From Methanolacinia paynteri (GTDB lineage Archaea; Halobacteriota; Methanomicrobia; Methanomicrobiales; Methanomicrobiaceae): 38,158 nt of DNA. A program made the position numbers and the translations under genes. The stretch spans positions 1 to 38,158 of the forward strand of contig NZ_KN360929.1 in NCBI RefSeq assembly GCF_000784355.1, given 5' to 3'. Positions 6,267 through 30,372 of the stretch are shown in pieces; the stretch's first letter is position 1, and every line of letters starts with the position of its first letter. The notes beneath the pieces were generated by a model. That model was given only the letters and a program-made list of their open reading frames with translations. It had not been told where the DNA came from and did no database searches.

Positions 6267-6395
6267 CACAACCCTGCAGGAAACCGCTACTGAAACAGTC
6301 GTTCCAGGCACTGTTTCATGAAAAATCCAATGGCGATTCCAGGCATCCGGGTTCTCCGAAATGAACCCATGCAAATTGTATCAATCATCCGGATT
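6267..6395. repeat. Dispersed repeat B, copy 1
   Basis: Shared blocks with 11741-11842 are CACAA-CCTGCAGG, the 20-base TGAAACAGTCGTTCCAGGC region, TTTCATGA-AAATCC, and AATCATCCGGAT. This copy carries about 30 extra bases before the last block. It contains the perfect inverted repeat TGAAACAG (6291-6298) and CTGTTTCA (6311-6318) around a 12-base loop. Confidence 0.7.
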
Positions 6396-8261: not shown

Positions 8262-8313
8262 TTTTTAAGATTAGAGATCTATTTCAACCCCATTTAGTTC
8301 TACATTATAAAAA

Positions 8314-8350
8314 GCGTAGACGATCGTTCAATAAGATGTTTAAGGGATTC
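8314..8350 (+). repeat. Dispersed repeat A, copy 3 (core only)
   Basis: GTAGACGATCGTTCAATAAG and the following ATGTTTAA match the cores of the copies at 5654 and 6089. The stem TAGACG/TGTTTA keeps pairing with one G-U in place of G-C. Similarity fades after the core. It lies in the 283-base gap (8262-8544) between the lipoprotein gene and the ABC operon. Confidence 0.65.
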
Positions 8351-8510
8351 CAATTTATTCATTCATATGTAGACTGTCTAAGAATCGCGTTCATTTATCA
8401 GGGAGTAACCAAAGAAACATGAACTCTAGCAAAAATAAAAAAACAACATCCGCCACATAAATCCTATTAAGAAAGTAGAACAGACTAACAGTAAATTTGT
8501 TAAAAACTCA

Positions 8511-8527
8511 ATTAAATCAGATTTAAT
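8511..8527. promoter_or_regulatory. Perfect 17-bp palindrome, likely operator of the ABC operon
   Basis: ATTAAATC, a central A, then GATTTAAT form a perfect odd-length palindrome. It ends eight bases before the GGGGG ribosome binding site of the ATPase gene. Its size and symmetry fit a site for a dimeric winged-helix repressor. A chance AT-rich palindrome is less likely but not excluded. Confidence 0.45.
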
Positions 8528-8544
8528 CTTAAATGGGGGTAAAT

Positions 8545-9468
8545 ATGATAAAAACTGAAAACCTCACCAAGGAATACAACGGAAAAAACGCGGTCGACAA
8601 CCTCAACCTCGAAGTCGGAGACGGGGAAGTCTTCGGTTTTCTCGGCCCGAACGGGGCGGGAAAGAGTACGACCATCCTGATGCTCACGGGAATGATCGAG
8701 CCCACCTCCGGTACATGCACGATAGAAGGAGTAAACGTTGCGTTAAATCCGCTCAAGGGAAAGGAGATCCTCGGTTACCTCCCTGAAGATGTCGGGTTCT
8801 ACAGGAATCTCACCGGGTACGAAAATCTCGACTACCTCGGAAAATTCTACCCTATTGAAAAAAGCGAGAGGGAAGATCGGATCGAGAGACTCTTAAAAAG
8901 CGTCAGGCTCAACGGGGTAACCCAGAAAGTAGGCGAATATTCAAGGGGAATGAACCAGAGACTCGGGCTCGCCCTTGCTCTTTTGAACGACCCGAAGGTC
9001 GTGATCCTCGACGAACCGACTGCAAACCTAGACCCGGAAGGAGTACTCAGGTACAGGGAGATAATAAAAGAGCTGGAAAAAGAAGGAAAGACAGTCCTTA
9101 TCTGCTCACATATCCTCTCCGAAGTCCGGGCAGTCTGCACGACACTCGGAATAATCTCGCAGGGAAAACTCGTTGCAAAAGGGTCCGTCGAAGAAGTCGA
9201 AGACGAACTCATCAGGCAGAGCGGCACAAGGCAGAAGATCGTTATCAAATCCATAAACCCGGATCTTTATGCAGAGATCGAGTCGATCAAAAATCCCGAC
9301 ATTCTTGAGATCGAAAAGACGAATGACCGTATCGAGATCTCGGTTGAAAGTGATATCCGGCCTGTCCTCGCAGAAAAATTAAAAGATCACTGCTCAGGAA
9401 TAACAGAGATGTATCTTGACCGGCCGGTGCTTGAAGACTTATTTCTGAAGGTTTACAGGAGGGAATAG
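8545..9468 (+). CDS. ABC-2 type transporter, ATP-binding subunit
   Basis: The 307-residue protein has a full nucleotide-binding domain: Walker A GPNGAGKST, signature YSRGMNQRLGLA, Walker B VVILDEPT and the switch histidine in SHILSE. A C-terminal extension of about 90 residues is typical of drug/NatA-type exporters. It should power export through the two permeases downstream. I chose the ATG at 8545 over that at 8533 because the GGGGGT between them is a ribosome binding site for 8545. The stop is followed after three bases by the TTG of the first permease. The coding sequence is visibly richer in G+C than the permease genes. The substrate is unknown. Confidence 0.9.
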   Translation: MIKTENLTKEYNGKNAVDNLNLEVGDGEVFGFLGPNGAGKSTTILMLTGMIEPTSGTCTIEGVNVALNPLKGKEILGYLPEDVGFYRNLTGYENLDYLGKFYPIEKSEREDRIERLLKSVRLNGVTQKVGEYSRGMNQRLGLALALLNDPKVVILDEPTANLDPEGVLRYREIIKELEKEGKTVLICSHILSEVRAVCTTLGIISQGKLVAKGSVEEVEDELIRQSGTRQKIVIKSINPDLYAEIESIKNPDILEIEKTNDRIEISVESDIRPVLAEKLKDHCSGITEMYLDRPVLEDLFLKVYRRE

Positions 9469-9471
9469 ATA

Positions 9472-10485
9472 TTGGATCTCACAAGACTAGCGATAATTTC
9501 CCAAAAGGAGTTCTCGGATCATATAACCAGTAAAAAATTAATCCTAATACTCATCATATTCTGTCTAATTCTTGCTGTAGAGACTGCAAACGGAGTTGCA
9601 TCTTACAATGAAGCATTAGAAAAATATGCAAACGGCGATTCAACCGAAATATATCAACCGACTGCTGTAAGGGTATTTTTAGGAATTGTAAATGCCATAG
9701 GTGTTGATGGTCTTGGAATAGTCATAGGTTTAGCGTTTGGTTTCGACCTGGTCTCAGGCGAACGCGAGGACAGATCCCTGAAAACAATTCTATCACAGCC
9801 GTTATATCGCGATGAACTGATAAACGGCAAAGCAATTGGAGGCATTGTTGCTCTTACTCTAATCACTTTAGCAGGATTTGCAATTGTTTTTGCAGTAATG
9901 CTTATTTTGGGAATTGTTCCAAACATTAATGAGATATTCGGTATAGGGATAATATGGTTTTTGACCCTTTTACTTATAATTACTTCCTTTTCTTTATCAT
10001 TAATGACCTCGGTGATTGCAAACACAAGCAGTGGATCTTTAATCTTGGCGCTGGTAATTATTTTTATTACGCTTCTTGTTATCCCCGTAGGTGGAGGAGC
10101 ATTAGGTACCTATATTCTGTTTGGATCTCCTCCCGAGGAACCAACCTCAAATCTGGTTTCCTATGCTGAATATACTTCATACCAGGAAATGCAGGCAGAT
10201 TACAATAAAGTAAGTGAAACAGTTCAAGATTTCTGTAATTTCTTTTCAATAAGAAGTGTGTATGAGGAAATAACCATCCCCATAACTTCACCATCTTCAT
10301 ATATTATAGAAAAAGTTGGCCTTGGTGAATTTTTTTCCAACCCGGATAGCGCAAAAAGCGTAGGAGAACCCACATTCTGGACCATAATAAAAGACAAATG
10401 GATAAAAGTCATTGTTTTTATTACCTGGCCCGTTCTTTTTTTTGGAATTGCTTACCTGAGGTTCATGAGGTCTGATTTAAGATGA
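9472..10485 (+). CDS. ABC-2 type transporter permease, first copy
   Basis: The 337-residue membrane protein has about six hydrophobic helices: one at about 23-43, several between 75 and 205 and one at the C-terminus. A large loop lies at about 215-300. The signature DLVSGEREDRSLKTILSQPLYRDELINGKAIGG (residues about 90-120) is typical of ABC-2/NatB-like permeases. The start is TTG. It is supported by AGGAGG just upstream and by alignment of MDLTRLAIISQKEFSDHITS with the start of the next gene. It probably forms a heterodimer with that protein. Confidence 0.88.
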   Translation: MDLTRLAIISQKEFSDHITSKKLILILIIFCLILAVETANGVASYNEALEKYANGDSTEIYQPTAVRVFLGIVNAIGVDGLGIVIGLAFGFDLVSGEREDRSLKTILSQPLYRDELINGKAIGGIVALTLITLAGFAIVFAVMLILGIVPNINEIFGIGIIWFLTLLLIITSFSLSLMTSVIANTSSGSLILALVIIFITLLVIPVGGGALGTYILFGSPPEEPTSNLVSYAEYTSYQEMQADYNKVSETVQDFCNFFSIRSVYEEITIPITSPSSYIIEKVGLGEFFSNPDSAKSVGEPTFWTIIKDKWIKVIVFITWPVLFFGIAYLRFMRSDLR

Positions 10486-10497
10486 GGAGGATGGATT

Positions 10498-11499
10498 ATG
10501 GATTTACATAGAATAAAAACCATTGCTGCAAAAGAAGTCCGGGATCATATAACAAGTTCACGGTTTCTTGCCCTTTTGTTCCTGTTCCTGACAATTTGTG
10601 GCATATATTTGCTTAGGGAAACAGGCTGTTACCTGGAAGAAATTGGCAAATATGCTAGCAATCCAAATTATCCTCTATTTTACCTTCCATATTCTATCAA
10701 TATTTTCGAAGGTATCCGGGGAGCACTTGGAGGAAGCTCAATATTTGGATCAATCATTGCAATTGCTTTGGGTTTTGATTTAATTACAAAAGAAAAAGAA
10801 TCAGGATCTCTAAAGGCTATTTTATCAGTTCCTGTTTATCGGGATGAAATAATCAACGGGAAAGCCCTTGGCGGAATAATTGTAATAGCGATCGCAACAA
10901 CTATTGTTTTCATCCTTGCACTTGCAATTCTCCTAATGCATTCGATAGTTCCTAGTATCTCAGAATTGGGTTATCTTTTTGTTTTTTGGATCTTCACTAT
11001 CCTGTTCTTATCAGGTATCTTTACCATGTCCTTAATGATGTCTACTGTTGCAAAAAAAAGCGGAATATCCCTTATTTTTTCTTTATTGACCCTATTATTG
11101 ATTACAAGCGTGATCTCCACAGTAGGAACCTTTACAGCGAATACAATTATCGGATCTGATCCTACTATCGAATACAATAATTTGGAAAATGTAGACTATG
11201 GAACATTGCATGAAGTATCCACAGAGTACTATAAAAAGAAAGAAGCAATTCTGCAATTTTCAACATATCTCACAATAAATGCAAATTATGCTAAGCTATC
11301 TTATGTCTTCCTAAAGCCTCAGAACAGCAAAGTAACAAATGCAGATAACCTGGATGATGAGCAGAGGAATGACAGAACACTGCCTCCCATAGGAGAAGTT
11401 CTTGCCCCAATGTGGGGTTATGTCCTCTTCCTGATTGCTTATCCCGTAGTCTTTTTCGGGATAGCCTATGTCAAGTTCATGAGGATGGATCTACGGTGA
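10498..11499 (+). CDS. ABC-2 type transporter permease, second copy
   Basis: The 333-residue paralogue of the preceding permease has the same layout: N-terminal helix after AAKEVRDHITSSRF, the cytoplasmic signature DLITKEKESGSLKAILSVPVYRDEIINGKALGG, several helices, a large loop at about 215-300 and a final helix ending FGIAYVKFMRMDLR. The first permease ends almost identically in FGIAYLRFMRSDLR. The gap to the first permease is 12 bases with GGAGG as ribosome binding site. Together with the ATPase these make a complete exporter. A T-rich stretch follows at about 11526-11541. Confidence 0.88.
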   Translation: MDLHRIKTIAAKEVRDHITSSRFLALLFLFLTICGIYLLRETGCYLEEIGKYASNPNYPLFYLPYSINIFEGIRGALGGSSIFGSIIAIALGFDLITKEKESGSLKAILSVPVYRDEIINGKALGGIIVIAIATTIVFILALAILLMHSIVPSISELGYLFVFWIFTILFLSGIFTMSLMMSTVAKKSGISLIFSLLTLLLITSVISTVGTFTANTIIGSDPTIEYNNLENVDYGTLHEVSTEYYKKKEAILQFSTYLTINANYAKLSYVFLKPQNSKVTNADNLDDEQRNDRTLPPIGEVLAPMWGYVLFLIAYPVVFFGIAYVKFMRMDLR

Positions 11500-11959
11500 T
11501 CCTCATATGAAAAATAAAAACACAATCCTTTCTTTTTTATTGATGATCACAGGTTTAGTTCTCATTAAATTGTCCTTCTTCTTTCACAGTCGCATCATGT
11601 AATCTATTGACTCGAAGGAATACAAAAAAAGAAAATCTTAACCAAACAATCAAACAGGATTAAACAAATTAAATCCCAAAAGCAAAACAGTAATCATTCC
11701 CAGAAAAGGAGAATCCGAAAGGGATTACCCTCGTTCTGTTCACAATCCTGCAGGCGTTGCATGATTCTGAAACAGTCGTTCCAGGCCCTATTTCATGAGA
11801 AATCCTAAGTCGGATCCGTGCAGCCTGCAAAATCATCCGGATAAACCTGCTCAAAACTGAACAAGGCTTAAAGACATTCTCGGCTTTATAACGTATAATA
11901 ATTCCGATCATTACCAGTTCAGGACAGTACAGGAAAAAATAAAAAAATATCAAAAAAAT
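11500..11959. other. Intergenic region with a copy of repeat B
   Basis: No supported gene lies in these 460 bases. The left part is AT-rich with a run CTTTCTTTTTTATTG that could end the ABC operon. The right part holds the second copy of dispersed repeat B. The gene on the right (trmO) is on the minus strand and ends here, so the region has gene ends on both sides and no obvious need for a promoter. Confidence 0.6.
11741..11842. repeat. Dispersed repeat B, copy 2
   Basis: This copy matches 6267-6395 in four blocks, including a nearly 20-base identical block around GAAACAGTCGTTCCAGGC. The inverted repeat is TGAAACAG (11768-11775) with CTATTTCA (11788-11795), again around a 12-base loop. Read on the minus strand the one changed pair is a U-G wobble, so the stem is kept only if that strand is transcribed. 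Confidence 0.7.
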
Positions 11960-12538
11960 TCAATTCTTTCTCTTTTCATCGATCTCTTTGTGAAGTTCTT
12001 CCATCCACCAGGCGGTCTTCACGCCGTCCTTCGGGAGTGAATCCTGCACGAAAGGCTTTATATCGATCACCGGGCTCTTATCGATCGCATCGAGACCCGA
12101 GACTTCAAGGATATTTCCCTTCCGGGCGTGGAGCTTCACTATGGTCATTAAGACAGGATTCGGCCTTGCCGGACTGCACGTGCAGAATATTCCTTTCTCA
12201 GGGTAGTCCTTTCTTCCCATCGGGTGTATCTTCTTAAGATTCCGGCCCTCATTCGTCACCTCATGACCCCAGAATAAAACGACGAGATGTGAATAATCCT
12301 CGACGCCGTCAAGAAGTTCTTCGTACTTTTCATCGACGATTATCTCTGAGATCTCGTCCCGCCTGCTCCGGATCTGCGAGACATTCTCATCATTTCCACC
12401 CTGCATCTCGAGGCCGTTCTTATCGGCAACGAGGAAAGGTTTTTCCACATTGTTCCTGACAATTCCAACCGGCCGGATAACAAATTCCCTGTACTCCGGG
12501 AGATCTCCCGGCATGTCATTCTCTATATTGGTATTCAT
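11960..12538 (-). CDS. trmO: tRNA (t6A37) methyltransferase TrmO
   Basis: The 192-residue protein belongs to the TrmO/TsaA (UPF0066) family. Bacterial TrmO methylates N6 of threonylcarbamoyl-adenosine at tRNA position 37 using S-adenosylmethionine. Visible family features are the N-terminal RPVGIVRN, HLVVLFWGHEV, and the core GIFCTCSPARPNPVLMT followed by VSGLDAIDKSPVIDIKPF. The usual ATRSPxRPNP motif reads CTCSPARPNP here. A TTG nine bases upstream (12547) is a possible longer start. I prefer the ATG at 12538, though neither has a strong ribosome binding site. It stands alone, 73 bases after the aquaporin gene. Confidence 0.85.
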   Translation of the reverse strand: MNTNIENDMPGDLPEYREFVIRPVGIVRNNVEKPFLVADKNGLEMQGGNDENVSQIRSRRDEISEIIVDEKYEELLDGVEDYSHLVVLFWGHEVTNEGRNLKKIHPMGRKDYPEKGIFCTCSPARPNPVLMTIVKLHARKGNILEVSGLDAIDKSPVIDIKPFVQDSLPKDGVKTAWWMEELHKEIDEKRKN

Positions 12539-12611
12539 AATTTTCAAATCCGTGTTACAGGGATTTAAGATACGATAAAAAAAGGGTTTTGATCCGTTCC
12601 GGGGGGAACGA

Positions 12612-13376
12612 TCATGCAGCTTTCCCTGCCGGTTCGTCTTCCTTTACAATCCAGGAATACAGGAACACCGCGATGACTGCTCCAATGATCGGTCCTGCGA
12701 CATAGATCCAGTACACCCCGACGACATCAGGGCCGCCAAAGATCAGGTCCGCAATCATCGGCCCGAACGAACGTGCGGGATTGATCGACGCACCTGAAAT
12801 ATTGCCGATCGTCGTGATGATCCCTGCGACCGTAAGCCCGATTGCAAGACCGGCGAATCCAGGCGGTGCATTTTCATCCACAGCCGCACCCATGATAATG
12901 GTCATGAGAAGGAAAGTTCCGATGATCTCCGCAAGGAGGGCCTCCCAGACGGTTATGCCGGTGAAAGGGGCGGTTGCACCCAGGCCGCCGACAGTAATCG
13001 CTTCGGGACCGACAGACAGTGCGAACAGGATACTCCCCGCAAGCGCCCCTATGAGCTGTGCGACGACATATGCGACCATATCCTTTACAGGAAAGAGGCC
13101 CTTCGCCCAGAGAGCGATCGAGACCGCCGGATTGATATGTGCGCCGGATACCCTGCCGAACATATAGATAACAGCCATCACGGTGATGCCGAATGCGAGT
13201 CCTATGGCGAGCCAGTCGCCGAGACCGCCGAGCAGGCCGATGCCGATATTGAAGACATTGGGAGTCTTCTCTCCTTCAACCAGCATCAGGGTCATCGCCG
13301 CCGCACCCGCACCGAAATAGACCAGGAGCAAGGTCCCGATCAGTTCGGCGACCGAACGCTTCAAAAGCGACACCAT
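12612..13376 (-). CDS. aqpM: Aquaporin (AqpM-type MIP channel)
   Basis: The 254-residue channel has six membrane helices and both pore motifs, HINPAVSIALW in the first half and SINPARSFGPM in the second. It is a water/small solute channel. The archaeal relatives (AqpM) also pass glycerol slowly and possibly H2S or CO2, from family knowledge. The ATG at 13376 is supported by AGGTGAT five bases ahead, which overlaps the stop of the DUF2180 gene. A GTG at 13385 is the alternative. It is the last gene of a three-gene operon with DUF2193 and DUF2180 proteins, which hints that its cargo matters to that unknown process. Confidence 0.92.
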   Translation of the reverse strand: MVSLLKRSVAELIGTLLLVYFGAGAAAMTLMLVEGEKTPNVFNIGIGLLGGLGDWLAIGLAFGITVMAVIYMFGRVSGAHINPAVSIALWAKGLFPVKDMVAYVVAQLIGALAGSILFALSVGPEAITVGGLGATAPFTGITVWEALLAEIIGTFLLMTIIMGAAVDENAPPGFAGLAIGLTVAGIITTIGNISGASINPARSFGPMIADLIFGGPDVVGVYWIYVAGPIIGAVIAVFLYSWIVKEDEPAGKAA

Positions 13377-13381
13377 CCGGA

Positions 13382-13591
13382 TCACCTGCCCTTTATCGCT
13401 TCAGAGCAGTAGGGGCACAGGATTCTCGGGAGCGTCTTAGATACCTTCTTGGAGGGGAAGGGGTAACCTCCCTCCCAGACCTCCTGCTCCTCGCGGATCG
13501 CATGCTCCATGCAGAGTCCCATTCCGCAGACGATACATATCGCTACCGCTTCGGTATCCTTCCCCTGCTCGGCGCAGATATAGCACTTCAT
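13382..13591 (-). CDS. Small zinc-binding protein, DUF2180 family
   Basis: The 69-residue protein has eight potential metal ligands: C3, C6, C19, C22, C27, H30, C59 and C62 (MKCYIC, CIVCGMGLCMEH, CPYC). This suggests two zinc sites of a small treble-clef or ribbon fold. The size and pattern match the archaeal DUF2180 family, whose function is unknown. It lies between the DUF2193 gene (20 bases upstream) and the aquaporin gene (its start is five bases past this stop), so the three are almost certainly co-transcribed. It may be a metal-binding partner of the DUF2193 protein, which has its own C-terminal cysteine cluster. Confidence 0.8.
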   Translation of the reverse strand: MKCYICAEQGKDTEAVAICIVCGMGLCMEHAIREEQEVWEGGYPFPSKKVSKTLPRILCPYCSEAIKGR

Positions 13592-13611
13592 AATACAGCC
13601 CTCTCACCTTC

Positions 13612-15108
13612 TCAAACCGCGTTCCTGTACTCGCAGTACTGGTGCCTGAAGTCGACGCAAGATGCCGATGCACAGTTCTTGCATGCACGAACCGGGGCCG
13701 CCGCCGTCTTCTTGTCGAGTGCGATGAGGTTCGTCATCATCGTCGCCGTAACCGGTTCGGACGTAAGGAGACACGGGTAGTCGGCGAGGCTCATCATCGC
13801 CGCGAACCTGACCGTGATCGCACAGGCGGGGTATACGTACCGCTGCGGGTTCTGGATCACGTCATGATTGTCGACAGGCGACAAGTCGATCGGCAGACCG
13901 GACACCTTCGGAGTCAGCGGTGCATCCGATCCGGCTTTCGTTTTTCTGGCATGATCCATGATGTGCCAGCCGCGGAAGATCATATCCATGAAATCGCAGT
14001 TGTGAAGCTCGGCGGCCGCACCCCTCGTCGGGTAGAGCTGGACATAGTTGTGGAACCTTCTCGTCAGGAACTCCACGACCGCAGGGCCGTTGAATCCGTC
14101 GAGTTCGAGGATGTATTCGGCCGCAGCGGCGGTAGATCCCGTCGCAAGAGCGAGGAGCTGATCGTAACCGCTGAACTTGTCGATATTCTGGCGGAGAGTA
14201 TTCTCCATGACGTCGGTGCCTGCCTCGATAATTCCCATCACCATGTCGTCCTTGCACATGTTGAAGGTCGACTGCGCGATGTGGTGGGCGATATCTCCCA
14301 CACAGTACGCCGGAACAGTCACGATGTTGGCATAATGAACCTCGTCGTCGATCGCCTTTTTGACGTAAGGCTCCATCTTTCGCCTGTACTCCTCCATGTA
14401 CTTCGCCGGGTCGAACGAGCTCATTCCGGCGGACTCCATCAGTTTGACCTGTGCGGCCATCGGTTCGTCGTAGATGAACTGGAGCTCGTTGATCTCCTTG
14501 TCAACCGCTGCGGCAAGGGTTCCGCCGTTCTCGATATCGTGAGCGAATACGTCTCCCACACCGTAGGACGTATTCATTCCCCACGACTTCGCCGCAAGGA
14601 TCGCCTCCTTGTGATCGGTCGGGATATCCGTCTTTTTCAGGATCTGGTTCACGACATTGGATGTGCTCCCTGGTATAAGTGCGAAATCCACGACACATGT
14701 CGGGCCGTAGAATCCTGCATACCTCCTGGCCGATTCGAGCCCGATCAGCGCCTCGGATTTTGCGATCTCTTCGATGAACTTATCCACGCTCTTCCGGAAG
14801 CTCTCGTCGAGATCGTAGAGAATCTCCAGGACGGCCGGTGTCTGGTAATGCTCGACGAACGGGTCGTCCTCGGGCCGGACATAGTCCGTAAGGGACGTAA
14901 GAGTGTCATAGTGGGCGTTCACCGACTGGACGTGAAGATCGATCACAGCCTCCGACTGGCCGTCTCCGGCTTTCATCTTGTTCACGGCATCAACATACGG
15001 TCTGCCGTCCTTCACTTCGAACTTCTGCCCGCGTTTCCTCTGGAGAACAGAAAGATCCGCACGTTGCGCACCCATTGCTTCATCGATAATTTTTTTATAC
15101 AACTTCAT
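13612..15108 (-). CDS. DUF2193 family protein of methanogens
   Basis: The 498-residue soluble protein has no signal or membrane segment. I recognise it as DUF2193, an uncharacterised family I know from methanogenic archaea. It is largely helical and acidic at the N-terminus and ends in a cysteine cluster, VRACKNCASASCVDF and QYCEYRNAV (spacing CX2CX4CX8C). That cluster could bind zinc or an iron-sulfur cluster. It also has His-rich spots such as GDIAHHIAQ, RRFHNYV and HIMDHARK. AGGTGA six bases before the ATG is a strong ribosome binding site, and a TATA-like ATTATAT lies about 45 bases upstream. It heads the operon with DUF2180 and the aquaporin. No enzyme activity can be assigned. Confidence 0.82.
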   Translation of the reverse strand: MKLYKKIIDEAMGAQRADLSVLQRKRGQKFEVKDGRPYVDAVNKMKAGDGQSEAVIDLHVQSVNAHYDTLTSLTDYVRPEDDPFVEHYQTPAVLEILYDLDESFRKSVDKFIEEIAKSEALIGLESARRYAGFYGPTCVVDFALIPGSTSNVVNQILKKTDIPTDHKEAILAAKSWGMNTSYGVGDVFAHDIENGGTLAAAVDKEINELQFIYDEPMAAQVKLMESAGMSSFDPAKYMEEYRRKMEPYVKKAIDDEVHYANIVTVPAYCVGDIAHHIAQSTFNMCKDDMVMGIIEAGTDVMENTLRQNIDKFSGYDQLLALATGSTAAAAEYILELDGFNGPAVVEFLTRRFHNYVQLYPTRGAAAELHNCDFMDMIFRGWHIMDHARKTKAGSDAPLTPKVSGLPIDLSPVDNHDVIQNPQRYVYPACAITVRFAAMMSLADYPCLLTSEPVTATMMTNLIALDKKTAAAPVRACKNCASASCVDFRHQYCEYRNAV

Positions 15109-28892: not shown

Positions 28893-29963
28893 CTAGGCGA
28901 TAAAAACTTTACTTCCTATATACGCTTTGATTCTGTCCTTAACATTCTGCTCTAAGTTCCTGTACCAGAACGCATAATCATAGCGGTGATAGACACCCTC
29001 GGGATACGAGCCGATATCAAGCTCCTCTCCCTCGGGAATATTCGTCATAAGTGCGCCGGAGGTCATGTTGATCTGTGCATCCGAGTAATTTGCGACTTCA
29101 CGAAGGAACTCTCCAGTCGAATCGTCGTAGAACCTTGCGCCGATATTCTCCGATGACGGAGCATATGTATCGTCGGTCCTCCAGTTGAGCGGATTGATGC
29201 AGTGTGCACCCGCCATGAGCATCGGTCCTCCGACCGAAGTCGGCGACTGCGTGTTGTACGTAATTACGACACCAGTGTCGGTCGCCCCCGTCGCTGCCGT
29301 CAGGCCTGCCTGTGCCAGATCGTCGTCCGTAACAGTATAACCGATCAGGTAAGCCGCAACCATACGGCTGCGAAGCTCTTCGTCGTCACCGAAACGGTTC
29401 TTTATCAGTTCGATCAGCGCCATCGCCCCCTGGCTGTGACCTGCGATGATAAACGGCCGTCCCTCATTCAGGTTCTCGATATAATACTCAAATGCATCCT
29501 GCACATCGACCGCACCCTGCTTGAACTCGGGAGTGTCGGTCGCAAGCTCGTCAGCCGAAGTCATAGAAACTCCGGTCGACATCTGCCTGTAGTATGGGGC
29601 GAATACATTTGCACTCGGCTCGTATACACTCGCCTGCGCCTCGAAGATTCCCTGTGCAAGGGCCCTGTCCACATCATCGGTAATGAGCATCGAACCCGAT
29701 TCGTTCGCACTCACCGTCGGGTACACATAGAAGACGTCTACCTCTTTATCGACAGCGGGAAGAGAGAGCCAGTTGTAAGAGTCCGAATAATCGACACTCT
29801 CCCCCGCCGCCGGGACTTCTTCTGTGGGCGTAGCCATTACAGTAGGAGTCTCCGTCTCCTCTGCAGGAGCAGAACTCCCTTCATCCGTACAGCCTCCTGA
29901 AAATACCATGCAGATCGCTGCAATCATCAAGAGAATAATCAAACCGGGCTTCCAAAAAGTCAT
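28893..29963 (-). CDS. Lipoprotein with DUF3089 alpha/beta-hydrolase domain
   Basis: The 356-residue protein has a lipobox ending at VFSGGC, so it is anchored outside the cell. The body is a DUF3089 domain: VFYVYPTVSA near the N-terminus, the nucleophile elbow FIIAGHSQGAMALIEL and a C-terminal PEGVYHRYDYAFWYRN with a likely catalytic His. The fold suggests an esterase or lipase of unknown substrate. A Thr/Glu/Pro-rich linker follows the lipid cysteine. I chose the ATG at 29963 because AAAGGTG lies about six bases ahead; GTG at 29972 is the alternative. The hairpin-rich region at 30095-30237 lies 130 bases upstream. Confidence 0.82.
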   Translation of the reverse strand: MTFWKPGLIILLMIAAICMVFSGGCTDEGSSAPAEETETPTVMATPTEEVPAAGESVDYSDSYNWLSLPAVDKEVDVFYVYPTVSANESGSMLITDDVDRALAQGIFEAQASVYEPSANVFAPYYRQMSTGVSMTSADELATDTPEFKQGAVDVQDAFEYYIENLNEGRPFIIAGHSQGAMALIELIKNRFGDDEELRSRMVAAYLIGYTVTDDDLAQAGLTAATGATDTGVVITYNTQSPTSVGGPMLMAGAHCINPLNWRTDDTYAPSSENIGARFYDDSTGEFLREVANYSDAQINMTSGALMTNIPEGEELDIGSYPEGVYHRYDYAFWYRNLEQNVKDRIKAYIGSKVFIA

Positions 29964-29999
29964 CCAGAACACCTTTCCTTATCCCGGTAAACTTAACCG

Positions 30000-30372
30000 C
30001 AATCTTACTTAAAATTCGCCATTTGCCGGGAACAGTGTTCTAAAAAGAACTCTTTGCCAAAAACGTTCATAAAACAAAGGTTTCATGCACTGTTCATGTA
30101 AATCACAAAGTGATTTGCATGTAAAACCAAATAAACAGCCAGGGGACCCTTGCCGGTCCCCGGGCGTGCAATGAGATAGCTATCTTAAGGCAAGGCCCCT
30201 GGGCAGGGGCCGTCCGGCGGGCAGACCTGGCCGCCGGTGCCGGGGTCGCCTGATAAAGACATGAGACAGCAAAGAGCCAAAAAGTTTATTGAGATTAGGG
30301 CAGGGGATCTAAAGGACCCGAGTCCGGATTTTTATAGCAAATAATAAAATTCTTCATCCGGGATCTTATGGA
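30000..30372. other. Intergenic region with hairpin array, no gene seen
   Basis: The 370 bases between the DUF3089 gene (start side) and the PiT gene (stop side) contain no convincing protein gene. A 26-codon frame from the ATG at 30261 (MRQQRAKKFIEIRAGDL) to 30341 is possible but unsupported. The middle is a run of strong inverted repeats, annotated separately. The AT-rich part next to 29963-30060 should hold the promoter of the DUF3089 gene. Confidence 0.5.
30095..30237. ncRNA. Candidate structured RNA: array of five inverted repeats
   Basis: In order: CATGTAAATCAC with GTGATTTGCATG (12-bp stem, one G-T, loop AAA, 30095-30121); GGGGACC with GGTCCCC (7 bp, loop of six, 30142-30161); the palindrome AGATAGCTATCT (30174-30185); GGCCCCT with AGGGGCC (7 bp, loop GGGC, 30194-30211); CCGGCGG with CCGCCGG (7 bp, loop of ten, 30214-30237). 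From 30142 on the G+C content is far above its surroundings. No known RNA family is recognised. It could also be the 3' region of PiT mRNA or the long leader of the DUF3089 gene. Confidence 0.35.

Follow-up and report, generated by a model that had tools for sequence, protein, structure and literature searches.

The cluster of hairpins at 30095-30237 of the window, the 38,158-nucleotide stretch of Methanolacinia paynteri DNA analysed here, is probably one copy of a non-autonomous, dispersed MITE-class repeat of Methanolacinia with a three-hairpin RNA module (module A) that is strand-specific and conserved in structure. Comparison of the sequences, on which this reading is built, revealed many copies, terminal repeats, target duplications, empty sites, an architecture in which module A is combined with a diverged homologue (module B), arrays, a preference for convergent gene pairs, and selection on base pairing. 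Our strongest claim is that the feature appears to be a dispersed element of MITE-like kind whose anatomy recalls that of BIMEs; that the A and B modules may work as RNA is less certain.

A PHO4-family phosphate transporter gene (PiT; PF01384; 30373-31551) and a DUF3089 lipoprotein-like gene (28893-29972), both on the minus strand, enclose the 400-bp gap that holds the cluster. All five inverted repeats claimed for this gap in the preliminary description were located in the window sequence, with 11 of 12 pairs in the first stem (CATGTAAATCAC/GTGATTTGCATG, 30095-30121, plus strand), and the palindrome AGATAGCTATCT (30174-30185, plus strand) is present here and is not a 12-bp palindrome in other copies. 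The sharp jump in G+C content reported there was also recovered, from 36-38% to 72% at the hairpin cluster. Folding of the plus strand of 30080-30345 gave -109.7 kcal/mol, compared with -81.5 +/- 4.9 for shuffled sequences (z -5.7; 0 of 200 shuffles were as stable), and the minus strand gave a z of -2.8. As had been stated, the cluster resembles no known RNA family: a search of the window with Rfam 15 covariance models at the gathering score matched only a tRNA elsewhere, and Rfam searches at E values up to 1 returned nothing relevant for ten further loci.

The hairpins are genuine, but they do not form the single 143-base feature that had been proposed, because 30062-30125 belongs to one repeat family (repeat M) and 30126-30261 to another (module A), which extends past 30237 to ~30261. 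Repeat M is an AT-rich, palindromic dispersed repeat on the plus strand that includes the 12-bp stem at 30095-30121. It has 46 copies in the sequence searched and 35 in the 2.4 Mb of M. petrolearia (of 2,843,290 bp) covered by our analyses of clusters, repeats M and X, and element ends; an A or B module is within 300 bp in only 8 of the 35, and M occurs mostly without A. Weak further matches to repeat M were seen in the window at 6285-6324 and 11763-11804. On the other side, repeat X (30281-30342, plus strand) flanks many copies beyond their short A-side end and usually accompanies one class of A copies, with 38 copies in the sequence searched and 17 of the 20 in M. petrolearia within 300 bp of A or B. 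The copy also has two arms resembling terminal inverted repeats, both on the plus strand and with the same ends as those flanking other copies: AACTCTTTGC on the left (30048-30057), with two mismatches to the consensus GGCTCTT(C/T)GC and 8 bp perfectly complementary to 30269-30276, and GCAAAGAGCC on the right (30269-30278), with no mismatch to the consensus end. The window copy is atypical, having no B module, M and X as flanks, a poor left end and only short arms.

Module A is the structured core (plus strand; 123.9 bits with nhmmer), and the covariance model matched the window copy at 30124-30262 with 145.5 bits. The module is ~130 nt long, is preceded by AACAGC and carries no GTAG or CGTC tag. 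Its hairpin 1 (30136-30168) consists of an outer helix CAGC/GC(G)TG, an inner helix GGGGACC (30142-30148)/GGTCCCC (30155-30161) and the loop CTTGCC (30149-30154); the inner helix has both-sided changes at three pairs and is paired in 98.9-99.6% of cells. Hairpin 2 (GGCCCC/GGGGCC, 30194-30211) is almost invariant, with 98.8% of cells paired, and hairpin 3 (CCGGCGG/CCGCCGG, 30214-30237), which reads CCACCGG/CCGGTGG in other copies, shows both-sided changes at two pairs, each in 4-5 copies. The 3' end of the module (GGGG(T/C)(T/C)GCC-like, 30242-30250) is kept in most of the 64 copies aligned. A possible pseudoknot between the hairpin 1 loop and GGCAAG (30189-30194) was set aside: 94.5% of its cells are paired, but it shows no covariation, and the exceptions are U>C changes opposite a constant A.

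A profile of module A also detects module B, a diverged inverted homologue found upstream of many A copies, at a distance of ~30-50 bp and on the opposite strand (down to an E value of 4e-7). The parts of B follow the same order as those of A: hairpin 1, with a CTYGYC-type loop, is followed by a GGCCCC/GGGGCC hairpin, then by a third hairpin and finally by a GGGGTTGCC-like end that matches the end of A on the other strand. In the 2.4 Mb of M. petrolearia, clusters are mostly A-B pairs arranged 5' to 5' and ~33 bp apart, and arrays with as many as nine modules also occur. The complete A/B unit measures ~350-500 bp, with terminal inverted repeats and target duplications of 8-9 bp; no ORF lies between A and B, where gaps are at most 137 bp. 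Copies of A and B recombine, as arrays and hybrids attest. Tandem A-B arrays flank a chemotaxis-type gene cluster (1689186-1695953 of M. petrolearia contig C1, corresponding to 8286-15055 of locus L056; L047 on M. paynteri contig C39), and array length there differs between species.

We found 47 matches to 30080-30345 in a DNA search of the window's own genome (G000; 2.79 Mb, 46 contigs), and the same search of 40 relatives gave many matches only in M. petrolearia (G001), of the same genus. A covariance model built from the alignment of 64 module A copies recovered at least 55 matches in each of these two genomes, a figure that counts full copies and a few fragments and is a lower bound because it equals the number of candidates scored. 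Beyond these two, the model found a single weak match in G002, a genome of the same genus, and one in G017, from the same family; the remaining relatives searched gave none. Exact-pattern scans of 84,980 species and of viral contigs, and blastn against plasmids and phages, returned no copies from collections in which records near the window's own may have been omitted. The module A repeat thus appears to be limited to Methanolacinia, bar traces in two relatives, and was not found in the others searched. The preliminary description had named a match to a mobile repeat as grounds for rejecting an RNA; the feature is a mobile repeat in kind, and one that is apparently undescribed. Literature searches found no description of it, and the available portions of the published M. 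petrolearia and M. limicola genome descriptions mention no such repeat and list 0 CRISPRs. G002 also contains, as two copies in tandem (locus L071, 1364-1432 and 1501-1568), a shorter relative that has only hairpin 1; its loop, CTGCC, might pair with GGCAG downstream.

At the ends of full units lie GGCTCTT(C/T)GC inverted repeats, which reach a length of ~30 bp. The terminal repeat GGCTCTTYGCTRWTYHNTGTGGGTAWAWAA was found, with up to three mismatches, at 27 sites in M. paynteri and 12 in M. petrolearia, almost only beside A/B modules, and a reversed control found none. Two good ends are present in 17 units, and nine of these are flanked by target duplications of 8-9 bp matching at 7 of 8 positions or better, compared with 1.0 expected by shuffling and a maximum of five in 2000 shuffles; these duplications are mostly A/T-rich. 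Among 39 M. paynteri clusters that could be placed in M. petrolearia, 27 sites are occupied and 12 are not, the window's site being one of the 12. The M. petrolearia gap holds 74 unrelated bases at this site, so the window copy has no clean empty joint and its target duplication is unreadable. At three shared loci the element has opposite orientations in the two species (L036:743, L048:727 and L054:683 and their M. petrolearia sites).

Terminal inverted repeats, a target duplication of fixed length, and multiple non-coding copies with empty orthologous sites are all features by which MITEs are recognised, and the short A/B unit has each of them. A related transposase-bearing element, or a trans-acting transposase, is a further such feature, and in 2.4 Mb of M. 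petrolearia we found no ORF enclosed by these ends. We call the unit MITE-like because its cognate transposase was not found and may have been lost. Unlike in MITEs with a known parent transposon, the interior consists of two inverted homologous modules that appear to be structurally selected, rather than IS remnants. IS1595, ISL3, IS1 and Y1 transposases were rejected as partners, as PF12762, PF01610, PF03400 and PF01797 are absent from both M. paynteri and M. petrolearia. PF01609 was likewise rejected as a mobiliser, with eight copies in M. petrolearia and none in M. paynteri; one of the eight lies inside an A/B unit (M. petrolearia C1, 1569104-1570493), as if an insertion sequence had landed there.

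The covariation suggested as a test by the preliminary description was found in the stems of the 64 copies of A, in which 97.6% of cells form a standard pair. Both-sided changes number 14 cells, compared with 1.5 in shuffles and at most nine in slid versions, and the loops and joining segments are conserved too. Since such shuffles ignore the relatedness of the copies, we added two further tests. In the first, changes away from Watson-Crick pairs were counted on a tree: in A, 52 led to G.U and 21 to A.C, and in B, read in its own orientation, 50 led to G.U and 18 to A.C. Against unpaired-column controls, in which C>T and G>A rates per base are equal in A and nearly so in B, the G.U excess is significant in both modules (binomial p 0.0006 for A and 0.005 for B). 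As the element has A on one strand and B on the other, mutational strand bias cannot explain both excesses. The preference for G.U over A.C in the orientation of A, and of B on the other strand, indicates folding as RNA, although a role as a DNA hairpin retains some likelihood, G.T being less disruptive than A.C in single-stranded DNA as well. The second test compared 18 same-orientation orthologous copy pairs, in which paired positions differ by 6.0% and unpaired positions by 15.1%; eight base pairs changed on both sides yet stayed Watson-Crick, 18 differ by G.U and six by A.C, and since copies recombine, gene conversion could account for part of this compensation. Covariation beyond chance and strand-specific tolerance of G.U, both hallmarks of structured RNA, are thus present in the A/B modules. 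The earlier suggestion of an undescribed structured RNA is borne out to this extent, with plus-strand RNA favoured in the window, and fails as an RNA gene of one locus, the structure being carried by a dispersed mobile repeat.

We found that A/B clusters in M. petrolearia lie between convergent genes more often than other gaps do (23 of 55, compared with 123 of 640 gaps of at least 150 bp; Fisher p 0.0002, with genes taken from our own simple calls), and that divergent gaps are depleted (6 of 55). The flanks of the clusters are often T-rich, and dozens of copies adjoin unrelated genes. We suggest that the unit may have been spread into T-rich gene ends by a trans-acting DDE-type transposase that has since been lost or has escaped recognition, and that read-through or local transcripts there would contain A and B as folded RNA. 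Judging from their placement, the hairpin modules may then influence neighbouring transcripts at their 3' ends, through end protection or processing, much as has been proposed for REP/BIME elements in bacteria. This RNA role is the least certain step of our explanation. Copies are strongly uneven along the M. petrolearia chromosome and nearly missing from ~1 Mb of it (C1 1-470 kb and beyond 2.3 Mb).

REP/BIME elements occur as intergenic inverted dimers and tandem arrays, are rich in convergent and unidirectional gaps, and keep their palindromes through complementary changes (PMC2817692, PMC3733652). The A/B modules likewise form inverted dimers and tandem arrays in intergenic space, with convergent and tandem gene pairs favoured as for the REPs of PMC3733652 and the BIMEs of PMC2817692, and a wider repeat family, C, recalls Pseudomonas REPs in starting with GGAGC ahead of a hairpin with a CTTGCC loop. 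Hairpins recognised and moved as single-stranded DNA by a Y1 (HUH) tyrosine transposase, with RNA folding incidental, would account for this layout. Such an origin is nonetheless unlikely: the Y1 family PF01797 is absent from G002 as well as from the two A/B genomes, which are archaeal and have no RAYT; terminal inverted repeats and 8-9 bp target duplications are unexpected of Y1 chemistry; and modules of ~130 bp with three hairpins fall outside the 20-40 bp GTAG- or CGTC-tagged palindromes that define REPs. The multiple copies, terminal repeats, target duplications and lineage-specific insertions would also fit an ordinary, functionless MITE whose hairpins are mutationally inert passengers, and recombining copies and differing array lengths make it conceivable that covariation arose from a few source elements and gene conversion. 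We consider this improbable, given that G.U is in strand-specific excess in A and, on the other DNA strand, in B as well, and that divergence is 2.5-fold lower at paired sites of shared copies.

Explanations tied to the individual locus fare worse. Strong folding of one strand and the lack of an Rfam match are what a small RNA, riboswitch or 5' leader serving the phosphate transporter or lipoprotein gene would show, but both flanking genes are on the minus strand while module A is on the plus strand, and the many copies beside unrelated genes, together with the empty gap in M. petrolearia, rule out a single-locus structured RNA for practical purposes and dissolve the supposed link with the phosphate transporter. 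Position downstream of gene ends and in convergent gaps could instead suggest stacked intrinsic terminators or DNA-level protein-binding palindromes, such as gyrase or nucleoid-protein sites. Terminators were already judged a poor explanation in the preliminary description and are ruled out by the absence of a T run 3' of any hairpin at 30095-30237, and tolerance of G.U is unexpected of double-stranded binding sites, and loops and joining segments are conserved as well, so this pair of explanations is very unlikely.

HEARO and omega RNAs are structured RNAs of IS200/IS605-type elements, for which ORF-less copies exist. Module A resembles them as a candidate structured RNA on a mobile element with ORF-less copies, but the window has no Rfam match, no ORF lies between A and B, and the ends and duplications differ. 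ERIC, BOX and Correia-type repeats are structured, interspersed, mobile and intergenic, and able to fold in transcripts. The A/B unit is likewise a mobile, intergenic repeat capable of folding, but it occurs in other hosts and shows apparent strand-specific selection on two opposed modules; our comparison with these repeats was made through Rfam only. Repeats of this type are reviewed in PMC2229807.

If our reading is correct, two Methanolacinia genomes contain dozens of mobile-element copies that keep their RNA folds at each site. As cultured species provide orthologous gene pairs in which the element is present or absent, these copies would offer a natural test, with many replicates, of how an inserted RNA structure affects archaeal transcripts. 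The case also advises caution, as hairpins packed into a methanogen's intergenic space may belong to mobile repeats rather than to locus-specific riboregulators.

The match in G017 led to the wider family C, a dispersed, GC-rich repeat of ~95 bp that combines GGAGC, a CTYGYC-loop hairpin like hairpin 1 of A, GACCTATCGC and a G-rich hairpin; its segment GACCTATC resembles that of B, and homology with A/B is suggested. A less probable and more speculative reading is that the A/B units form a novel class of mobile element in archaea, with a divergent homologous pair of structured RNAs as cargo under RNA-level selection after insertion, within a superfamily that would include C and have a conserved, undescribed RNA-binding partner or RNA-based function across Methanomicrobiaceae. 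Family C has no match in Rfam. It is present in both A/B genomes, G002 and several other Methanomicrobiaceae genera (loci L231-L240), with dozens of copies in M. petrolearia, ~65 of them full-length by eye (for example at C1 1710505, 944737 and 432755).
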